Assembly (NCBI GenBank): GCA_030430155.1
Contig: JAUIFV010000014.1
Coordinates: forward strand, 1 to 48,204
Direction of reading: 5' to 3'
Length of the DNA: 48,204 bases
From: Gammaproteobacteria bacterium
GTDB taxonomy: Bacteria; Pseudomonadota; Gammaproteobacteria; Xanthomonadales; SZUA-5
The notes under the pieces were generated by a model, which saw only the letters and a program-made list of their open reading frames with translations, made no database searches and was not told the DNA's origin. A program made the position numbers and the translations under genes. The first letter of the stretch is position 1, and every line of letters starts with the position of its first letter. This document shows, in pieces, positions 20,893-43,545 of this stretch.

Positions 20893-20958
20893 TGGATGCT
20901 CGCAGGTGGAATCGGCGTCATGGCCGGGTGGTCGGGACGGCGCAGTTTACTCGGGCGA

Positions 20959-21081
20959 GGGCCCTGGGCCCAGGGCTCAGGGCCCAGGGCCCAGGGCCCA
21001 GAATGCAAACACCCGCGCCGGGCTCGGCGCGGGTGGTCGGTTTCAAAGTGTGCCGATACTGGGCCCTCTTCCCTGGGCCCT
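20959..21081. repeat. Heptanucleotide array (GGGCCCA/GGGCTCA units)
   Basis: Six exact-period units run from 20959 to 21000 (GGGCCCT, GGGCCCA, GGGCTCA, then three GGGCCCA). After a 60-base gap holding a hairpin, three more in-register units lie at 21061-21081 (GGGCCCT, CTTCCCT, GGGCCCT). The array fills the 217-base gap between coxC and putA. The same unit recurs at five other intergenic sites in this window. Confidence 0.9.
21011..21034 (-). terminator. GC-rich hairpin downstream of coxC
   Basis: A perfect 9-bp stem (ACCCGCGCC / GGCGCGGGT) with a 6-base loop lies 76 bases after the coxC stop. On the minus strand it is followed by GTTTGC, a weak T tract, so it is a plausible but not strong terminator of the cox operon. 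Confidence 0.5.
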
Positions 21082-32202: not shown

Positions 32203-32349
32203 GTTGACTCCGGCGGTGAGGTGCGGCTCATCCTGCCAAAGAGCAGCTGAACGGTTACTTCGGTCGCAGTGATTTTCCCTGTGCTGCGTTGCTGCAGATG
32301 GTGAACCGACAGAAATCGAGCGCTCGCCAATGCGCGCTCTTGACTTGCT

Positions 32350-32377
32350 GGGCCCTGGGCCCTGGGCTCTGCGCCCT
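32350..32377. repeat. Short heptanucleotide array (four units)
   Basis: Units GGGCCCT, GGGCCCT, GGGCTCT and GCGCCCT in exact 7-base register lie between the start of the MotA-like gene and the tRNA-Pro promoter. Confidence 0.85.
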
Positions 32378-41753: not shown

Positions 41754-41767
41754 GTGGAGAGGGGCGA

Positions 41768-41902
41768 GGGCACAGGGCCCAGGAAGAGCTGGCAAGTACG
41801 GCGCTCGTTTCTCGGCCCTGGCAAGAAAGAGGGCCCAGGGCTCAGGGCATAGGGCCCAGAAGTGCGGGCAGGTCTGGCGCTCTTTTCTGGGCCCTGGGCC
41901 CT
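41768..41902. repeat. Composite heptanucleotide repeat region between feoA and the BNR gene
   Basis: Units GGGCACA and GGGCCCA lie at 41768-41781, GGGCCCA, GGGCTCA, GGGCATA and GGGCCCA at 41831-41858, and GGGCCCT twice at 41889-41902, the last meeting the BNR stop codon. Between them two imperfect direct repeats of about 40 bases (41791-41829 and 41867-41911; shared GGCGCTC-TTTCT) show that the region grew by segment duplication. The 30 bases 41830-41859 recur exactly, inverted, at 43031-43060. Confidence 0.88.
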
Positions 41903-42998
41903 AGCAAAAAGCCACCGCCGCCACCGGCGGCAGGTGACCGCTGATCTGCTTCCAATGGTCGCCCTGGTCCTCGCTGACCCAAAGATTGCCCGTCGTGCTG
42001 GCGAAGGCCAGACGTTGGCCGCTGGAGTCGATGGCCAGCGCGTGCCGATACGTCAAATCGTAAGACGGACCCTCCGGAAGGCCGCTGCGCAACTGCTGAA
42101 AACTGCGCCCGCCGTCGCGGGTGCGAACAACGCAGAGTCGGGCGTCGACGGGCACCCGCTTTTCGTCCTTGACCGCAGGGACGAACCAGGCGCTCTGGCC
42201 ATCGTTGGGGTCAACTGCGACGGCGAAGCCGAATGAGGAGGGTGGCACCTTGATCTCCTCCCACAGGGCGCCCCCGTCAGTAGAGCGAAACACGCCGTTG
42301 TGATGCTGCACCCACAGCTGATCAGGATCCTTGGCGCACTGCACCATGCAGTGTGGGTCCTGGATGGCTTCGTCCTCGCTCAGCTCGGGCGGCATGTAGT
42401 CGGCGCGCATGCCGCGGCAGCGGATAGTCCAGGTCTGGCCGTCGTCCTGGCTGTGCCAAACGCCGCCGCAAGACACCGCAACGCGCAGCTCCGAACTGCT
42501 CCGGGGATCGACGCAGATGGAGTGGATCCCAGGCCAGTCATAGCCGCCGCCGAACCAACGCTCGCGTTCCGGCCGCTCCCATAGACCGCGCAGCAGATAC
42601 CAGCTGGCGCCGTGGTCATCAGAGCGAAACAGCCCACCGGGAATGGTGCCTGCCCAGAGCCGGCCGGGTTGATCGGCACCGCCAGCCGCCAGCGTCCATA
42701 GCAGCTGCAGGGCGGCCGGCTGCGGCTCCTTTCCATCACCTCCACCAACGCGGTCCTGCTCGGCATAGGCCGGCACTGCAATCTCGGTCCAGCTTTCGCC
42801 CTGATCGCTGGAGCGATGCAGCTTGCAGCCGAAATGGCCCAGGTTAAGCGCCGCATACCAGCTGCCGTCACGCTGGTCGCAAAGCGTGTAGCTGAGGTTG
42901 TCGCCAAGAAAGTGCACCGCCTGCTGCGCCCAGCCTTGGGCGCCGCGATCGAATACGAATAGACCCTTGCGGGTGGACAGCAACAAACGCTCGCTCAT
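41901..42998 (-). CDS. Cytoplasmic WD40/YVTN/BNR-type beta-propeller protein
   Basis: A 365-residue protein without signal peptide. It starts MSERLLLSTRKGLFVFDRG and contains several Asp-box/BNR motifs: RSSDQGESWTE, RSDDHGASWYL, HSQDDGQTWTI, RSTDGGALWEE, RTRDGGRSFQQ and VSEDQGDHWKQ, enough for a six-bladed propeller. Related genes are often labelled exo-alpha-sialidase or glycosyl hydrolase, but no sialidase active-site set is visible and the protein is cytoplasmic. The next gene upstream on the same strand encodes a MoaD/ThiS-like protein. I recall this pairing recurring in other genomes, so the two probably work together, in an unknown process. Heptamer arrays flank the gene on both sides. 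Confidence 0.8.
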   Translation of the reverse strand: MSERLLLSTRKGLFVFDRGAQGWAQQAVHFLGDNLSYTLCDQRDGSWYAALNLGHFGCKLHRSSDQGESWTEIAVPAYAEQDRVGGGDGKEPQPAALQLLWTLAAGGADQPGRLWAGTIPGGLFRSDDHGASWYLLRGLWERPERERWFGGGYDWPGIHSICVDPRSSSELRVAVSCGGVWHSQDDGQTWTIRCRGMRADYMPPELSEDEAIQDPHCMVQCAKDPDQLWVQHHNGVFRSTDGGALWEEIKVPPSSFGFAVAVDPNDGQSAWFVPAVKDEKRVPVDARLCVVRTRDGGRSFQQLRSGLPEGPSYDLTYRHALAIDSSGQRLAFASTTGNLWVSEDQGDHWKQISGHLPPVAAVAFC

Positions 42999-43018
42999 CT
43001 ACGACCTCCCGATTGGCT

Positions 43019-43067
43019 GGGCCCTGAGCCCTGGGCCCTATGCCCTGAGCCCTGGGCCCTGGGCCCT
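43019..43067. repeat. Heptanucleotide array upstream of the BNR gene
   Basis: Seven units in exact register: GGGCCCT, GAGCCCT, GGGCCCT, ATGCCCT, GAGCCCT, GGGCCCT, GGGCCCT. Bases 43031-43060 are the exact reverse complement of 41830-41859 on the other side of the BNR gene. Confidence 0.92.
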
Positions 43068-43089
43068 GATCAATACCCCAGCCTGCAAA

Positions 43090-43249
43090 TTTCATGAGTC
43101 TTCTACTGCGGCCGCCGGAGAGCAACTGTGGCGCGATCTGCTCCCTCCTATCGACTCGACGTACTGTTCAAGTACGCCTTCATCGATCTCCAGTCCGCGG
43201 ACCGCACCACAGCAGCTCTCCAACGCCCTCGCAACGAACACTCATGAAA
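43090..43249. repeat. 160-bp inverted-repeat element between the ubiquitin-like and BNR genes
   Basis: Perfect 10-bp terminal inverted repeats (TTTCATGAGT / ACTCATGAAA) enclose further complementary arms: GGAGAGC-CTGTGG-GCG near 43117-43136 and its complement near 43203-43222. A smaller hairpin CGTACT/AGTACG sits near the centre. The whole could fold into one long hairpin in the transcript joining the two genes. No target duplication or open frame was found. It may be a small MITE/REP-type element or a structured intercistronic RNA. Confidence 0.65.
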
Positions 43250-43257
43250 CATGCGGG

Positions 43258-43545
43258 CTAGCCGCCCGACAATGCCTGCATGATATAGACCTCCGAATCG
43301 ACCTCCAGCGGTTGGCTCAAATCGGTCTTGCTGGGCACGACTGTGTTGTTGACAAAGACCGTTACGTGATGACGCAGCCGACCGTGCTCATCGACCACGT
43401 AGCCGCGTAGCTGCGGCGAGTGGGCGAACAGCGCTCTCAGGAGCTCGTCCAAGTTGGCCGCATTGAATCGCAGCTGATCGGCCGGCTGCTCGTCAGCCGA
43501 CGCAATCCAGCGTCTCAAAGCCGATCCCAAGCTGACCTTTGCCAT
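43258..43545 (-). CDS. MoaD/ThiS-type ubiquitin-like protein ending in Gly-Gly
   Basis: A 95-residue beta-grasp protein. The segments KVSLGSALRRWI at the N-terminus, ANLDELLRALFAHSPQLRGYV, HVTVFVNNTVV and the C-terminal EVDSEVYIMQALSGG match MoaD/ThiS-family sulfur carriers; the terminal Gly-Gly is the residue pair adenylated by E1-like enzymes. Neither molybdopterin nor thiazole genes are adjacent, and no MoeB/ThiF-type activating enzyme or JAMM protease is in the window. It therefore is probably neither the housekeeping MoaD nor ThiS. Its partner appears to be the downstream BNR propeller, from which it is separated by the 160-bp inverted repeat and a heptamer array. Confidence 0.85.
   Translation of the reverse strand: MAKVSLGSALRRWIASADEQPADQLRFNAANLDELLRALFAHSPQLRGYVVDEHGRLRHHVTVFVNNTVVPSKTDLSQPLEVDSEVYIMQALSGG

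Follow-up and report, generated by a model that had tools for sequence, protein, structure and literature searches.

A conserved pairing of a ubiquitin-like Gly-Gly carrier with a cytoplasmic beta-propeller suggests an uncharacterised module for sulfur transfer or protein tagging

The ThiS/ThiG, MoaD/MoaE and CysO/CysM pairs each define a sulfur pathway, and a carrier with one dedicated neighbour, as in these three cases, usually passes sulfur to the substrate of that neighbour. The carrier SAMP1 is a known protein modifier. Outside the cofactor pathways, five types of neighbourhood combining ubiquitin-like (UBL), E1 and JAB genes (types 4a-4e) have been described (Iyer et al. 2006, PMC1779556), in a paper that contains none of the terms BNR, Asp-box, sialidase or beta-propeller. 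Here we analyse a Gly-Gly carrier paired with a beta-propeller, a combination for which no description was found in open-access papers.

The window is the whole 48,204-nt stretch of gammaproteobacterial DNA that was analysed (contig JAUIFV010000014.1). Both genes lie on its minus strand, confirming the preliminary description of a 95-residue carrier ending in Gly-Gly next to a propeller lacking a signal sequence (Table 1). The gap between them is unusually long compared with the medians of about 13-17 nt found in relatives. GGGCCCT-type heptamers (23 matches observed against 1.07 expected) form clusters at window positions 20958-21000, 32349-32377 and 41767-41902, in addition to the one within the gap, and this genome has similar clusters in L002 and L115. 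The gap cluster and the one located just 3' of the propeller gene flank this gene, and the repeats may account for the length of the gap.

Table 1 Features of the carrier/propeller locus in the window.
Feature	Position	Strand	Remarks
Ubiquitin-like (ThiS/MoaD superfamily) carrier	43258..43545	-	ORF, 95 aa, C-terminus ...YIMQALSGG
Carrier tail codons Ala-Leu-Ser-Gly-Gly and stop	43258..43275	-	tail kept in relatives
Cytoplasmic seven-bladed Asp-box beta-propeller	41901..42998	-	ORF, 365 aa; putative dedicated partner of the carrier
Lys11 codon (TRKG loop), near-invariant	42966..42968	-	99% of 131 family members
His159 codon, invariant	42522..42524	-	100% of 131 family members
His216 codon, invariant	42351..42353	-	100% of 131 family members
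Gln231-His232-His233 codons	42300..42308	-	Gln231 and His233 invariant, 100% of 131
Arg318 codon, near-invariant	42045..42047	-	98% of 131 family members
Intergenic gap between carrier and propeller, 259 nt	42999..43257	.	holds GGGCCCT repeat cluster 43019-43067

The carrier is a member of the ThiS/MoaD superfamily, matching Pfam ThiS (PF02597) with 29.2 bits at a cut-off of 22.5. Its best NCBIfam model is SAMP1, but the score of 38.7 bits is below the equivalog cut-off of 60 and places it outside the SAMP1 equivalog; the carrier of L162 reaches 52.6 bits, also below this cut-off. The nearest solved carriers in a profile search are the MoaD-related 1v8c, 3dwg chain C (E 4.9e-10), which we take to be CysO of M. 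tuberculosis, and SAMP1. The Gly-Gly terminus is found in 129 of 131 carrier relatives, the tail reading QALSGG in 107 of them and QALTGG in 7. In a tree of 84 carriers, built from a short alignment, the MoaD rows (support 100/88) and the ThiS rows (98/95) each form their own clade, and the window carrier falls within the main propeller-linked clade, which has support of its own (97/99). The remaining propeller-linked carriers are intermixed with E1-linked ones, their branching unresolved. In addition, the genome of the window encodes its own MoaD within a moa cluster located elsewhere (L001), and another ThiS-type gene is present in L002. Because the genome has both elsewhere and the clades are separate, the sequences support the earlier suspicion that the carrier is something other than MoaD or ThiS.

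Several carriers depart from the common pattern. A propeller-adjacent Nonomuraea carrier (L168:7081-7392) ends in ...VLPALA, having lost the Gly-Gly. In three draft assemblies the frame runs on beyond ALSGG (L063:5565-6068, L082:5684-6001 and L099:5714-6046); these carriers would need processing, or the extensions are assembly errors. A carrier ending in PAIGGG (L152:2170-2451) lies directly 3' of a xanthine-dehydrogenase-like large subunit, and together with a carrier match in L150 it forms its own branch in the tree. Moreover, four single ORFs from gammaproteobacteria combine a match to the carrier profile with one to E1 and appear to be UBL-E1 fusions (L146:2005-3933, L147:1063-2517, L148:1340-2824 and L149:1355-2821), each with an overlapping or adjoining JAMM match.

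The propeller starts with MSERLLLSTRKG, in which no signal peptide is apparent, and matches the BNR and Sortilin-Vps10 Pfam models above cut-off. It contains five strict Asp boxes (63, 126, 183, 239 and 342) and a degenerate one near 292-300 (TRDGGRSF), making the six BNR motifs counted earlier a fair number. Its closest PDB relative is 3b7f (phmmer E 1.4e-53, residues 5-362), a member of the same family with 36-37% identity and likewise seven blades. A model of the propeller from the L035 relative superimposes on 3b7f with a Z-score of 48.3 and an rmsd of 2.1 over 351 aligned residues, GH74 being the next best structural match (Z ~28). The entry 3b7f is Reut_B4987 of Ralstonia eutropha JMP134, whose function is listed as not known (PMC2716378). 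One paper (PMC6449761) names COG4447, a candidate for the propeller family, 'glycosyl hydrolase' and lists it next to COG1033 exporters under aromatic regulators.

The propeller shares the Asp-box architecture of GH33 sialidases and GH74 xyloglucanases, but it has neither the sialidase RIP motif nor a signal peptide, and its single seven-bladed propeller of 365 residues differs from the two tandem propellers of GH74. The window propeller has no RIP motif, nor does any of the 131 family members within its first 40 residues, and no sialidase model in Pfam or NCBIfam searches matches the window protein. The exo-alpha-sialidase label thus lacks support at the sequence level, in agreement with the doubt raised in the preliminary description.

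Six residues, Lys11, His159, His216, Gln231, His233 and Arg318, are 98-100% conserved across the 131 propeller family members. The strand order predicted for the L035 relative, used without coordinates, would place all six on one face, the loop face at the start of strand A and the end of strand B, around the channel mouth. No invariant Cys was found among the 131 members; a persulfide relay through the propeller is unlikely for this reason, and a catalytic Cys was likewise dismissed. Four propellers have no adjacent carrier, three on Rhodobacterales plasmids (L169, L170 and L171) and one in Streptomyces (L167), and one of the four adjoins egtB and egtD. These UBL-less propellers keep most to all of the six residues, including Lys11, and the pocket therefore has a role without an adjacent carrier; it either predates the carrier link or has wider uses.

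The pairing extends well beyond the genome of the window. A propeller search of 61 genomes, comprising this genome and its relatives, gave strong matches (E <1e-39) in 13 genomes. Apart from the window's own duplicate, every locus fetched for these has a small GG-ending ORF next to the propeller. Among named genomes, a scan yielded 80 propeller loci from Pseudomonadota, Planctomycetota, Acidobacteriota, Verrucomicrobia, Chloroflexi and Myxococcota; the carrier is located just upstream in 79, and the eightieth ends at a contig edge, giving 79/79 among loci with flanking DNA. In the reverse direction, a carrier search of 369 gammaproteobacterial genomes found matches in 54, and the best 30 of these all have an adjacent propeller (30/30), the lower-scoring matches including other carrier families without a propeller. 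All 127 pairs compared are on one strand, 105 carrier-first (median gap 13 nt) and 22 propeller-first (16.5 nt), and the retention of the pair in two gene orders was counted in favour of a functional pairing. Carrier and propeller distances are correlated (Mantel r 0.85), as is also expected from shared descent. On two annotated plasmids a 'MoaD/ThiS family protein' is followed by an 'exo-alpha-sialidase', in line with the preliminary description, which states that the same pair occurs elsewhere under this label; the Pseudomonas aeruginosa plasmid pZYPA1927 carries the pair (L166:4711-6107). No conserved third neighbour was found in the +/-6 kb flanks of the 80 loci of the main clade. A defence-system reading was dropped, as a PADLOC search gave no match and a search for phage homologues of the carrier found none.

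The statement that no E1 or JAMM gene adjoins the pair holds for the window, yet E1 adjoins it in distant relatives, twice together with JAMM. E1 lies within the cluster in three distant lineages, in the order E1-propeller-carrier (L178 and L179), divergent from propeller-carrier (L176), or as propeller-YqeC-carrier-E1 (L177) and propeller-YqeC-carrier-JAMM-E1 (L161 and L162). These E1s are of the MoeB/ThiF type, those of L162 and L177 also having a rhodanese domain, and the cluster E1 is the sole PF00899 match found in genomes G015, G025, G040, G214 and G324. The YqeC located between propeller and carrier in L161, L162 and L177 matches the selenium cofactor biosynthesis protein model TIGR03172. 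The genome of the window encodes two E1 candidates, a rhodanese-MoeB beside a moeA-like ORF and a TcdA-like E1. Overall, E1 is present in 69 of 71 pair-bearing genomes examined, the two exceptions without a convincing E1 being incomplete or draft (G435, with a weak partial match only, and G232, in 420 contigs). The E1 adjacency in distant relatives and the presence of E1 in nearly all pair genomes together support an activated Gly-Gly carrier. Around the 80 main-clade loci, single-query phmmer searches found no E1, JAMM or YqeC out to ~6 kb, and among the pair loci searched JAMM lies beside the pair only in L161 and L162.

One of the nearest known systems is the CysO/CysM/Mec/MoeZ cysteine pathway of M. 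tuberculosis, which likewise combines a standalone GG carrier of the same superfamily with a dedicated adjacent partner and a MoeB-type E1 with rhodanese. In two relatives the resemblance extends to a JAMM in the cluster and a PF00291 PLP-dependent (cysteine-synthase-like) gene several kb away. However, the partner is a beta-propeller instead of a PLP-dependent cysteine synthase, and most pairs are without JAMM. The ORFs surrounding the window pair include neither a cysteine synthase nor a JAMM, setting the locus apart from the CysO system. As in MoaD/MoaE and ThiS/ThiG, a GG carrier would be combined with a specific acceptor enzyme, a role proposed here for the propeller, and in single-E1 genomes one MoeB could serve all carriers. 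The propeller fold is unrelated to those of MoaE and ThiG, and the pair differs further from these systems in its separately supported carrier clades and in sharing the window's genome with a MoaD and a ThiS-type gene.

Resemblance to the Haloferax SAMP1/UbaA/HvJAMM1 system is found in the best NCBIfam model of the carrier and in genome G324, where desampylase is the nearest match of the JAMM and the UbaA model also matches the E1, whereas the carrier scores below the SAMP1 equivalog cut-off and JAMM is usually missing. In types 4a-4e of PMC1779556, too, a ThiS/MoaD-like protein is linked to E1 (and JAB) apart from the cofactor pathways, but in the main-clade pairs E1 is not adjacent. The pair is filed here as a UBL carrier/partner kind distinct from MoaD, ThiS, SAMP1, CysO and sialidase.

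The best explanation, held tentatively and at slightly less than an even chance, is that the carrier is an E1-activated sulfur carrier with the propeller as its dedicated partner enzyme. MoeB, in the window's genome the rhodanese-MoeB shared with Moco synthesis, would adenylate the carrier tail and convert it into a thiocarboxylate. The tail would then enter the pocket formed by the six conserved residues at the channel mouth of the propeller, and the sulfur would pass to a small molecule bound there, with the propeller presumably catalysing the transfer. The propeller would thus play the part that ThiG, MoaE and CysM play for ThiS, MoaD and CysO. By analogy with these systems, the conserved pocket, the GG tail and the E1 links fit a handover of sulfur to a substrate of the propeller. 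Counting against the sulfur-carrier reading are the UBL-less propellers with conserved residues, the Gly-Gly loss in Nonomuraea, the three read-through carriers, the two fragmented genomes with no convincing E1, the lack of a third gene naming the pathway, and the inconsistent co-folds. A wider form of the sulfur-carrier reading, a widespread thiocarboxylate pathway with the propeller as sulfur-accepting enzyme, leading to an unknown sulfur-containing metabolite or modification, is possible and somewhat less probable.

The preliminary description had suggested a possible sulfur-transfer or protein-conjugation module. The conserved pair at its core is supported, while conjugation reversed by JAMM is weighed against somewhat because this genome and several other pair genomes have no above-cut-off JAMM. 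In a conjugation module the carrier would be joined through its Gly-Gly to lysines, the propeller being the main target or an E3-like substrate adaptor. The proximity of the carrier to SAMP1, the desampylase-like JAMM in the propeller-YqeC-carrier-JAMM-E1 clusters of G214 and G324, and the near-invariant Lys11 all argue for conjugation, but Lys11 is also kept where no carrier adjoins. Moreover, Prok-JAB above cut-off is missing from the window's genome, where one weak match of 23.7 bits was found, and from several other pair genomes, and single-query phmmer detected no JAMM near the 79 main-clade pairs. We regard conjugation as unlikely, though still deserving consideration.

About equally improbable is a non-covalent complex, in which the carrier would serve the propeller as a stable subunit or as a chaperone, its tail docked in the channel without activation. 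The near one-to-one pairing with short gaps agrees with such a complex, as does the Nonomuraea carrier. Co-folding by read-through of an in-frame stop, which returned no coordinates, gave one of two models in its favour, the L035 pair reaching a pTM of 0.86, above the estimate for an undocked carrier, with a poorly ordered tail; the second, L103, reached only 0.76 with a disordered tail. Inter-protein residue coupling gave a strong raw signal, but one that cannot reach significance, because it stems from too few independent changes (3-4 on well-supported branches). The nearly complete retention of GG and the E1 found in the clusters of three lineages, including the five genomes where it is the sole match, argue against a purely structural carrier.

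A role as Moco or tungsten-cofactor accessory, with the carrier as an alternative MoaD and the propeller aiding cofactor or metalloenzyme maturation, is considerably more doubtful. The cluster of G048 continues into MobA and MoeA beside formate dehydrogenase, YqeC accompanies the pair in three genomes, and MoaC was found in 38/38 pair genomes tested. However, MoaC is common anyway (271/369 genomes, with the ThiG control at 307/369), the carrier lies outside the MoaD clade, and no Moco gene is conserved beside main-clade pairs. The Moco link was rejected as a strict general rule, since two genomes with the pair, G367 (96% complete) and G369, are missing from the MoaC matches, and ThiG, the control, is common too. 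Chance adjacency or genomic hitchhiking without a functional link would accord with neither gene having a known function, but it is exceedingly improbable and refuted in practice by the counts across phyla, the two gene orders and the short gaps.

The partner's crystal structure has been available since 2007 with no function assigned, and the clean pairing makes the system directly testable in a laboratory strain. The pair occurs in several bacterial phyla, with Pseudomonas, Burkholderia and Cupriavidus among its hosts, and in bacteria that are common in soil and water. One host is Cupriavidus metallidurans CH34. If the sulfur-carrier reading is true, a further carrier/partner pair with a differently folded partner would represent an overlooked pathway under a misleading sialidase label.
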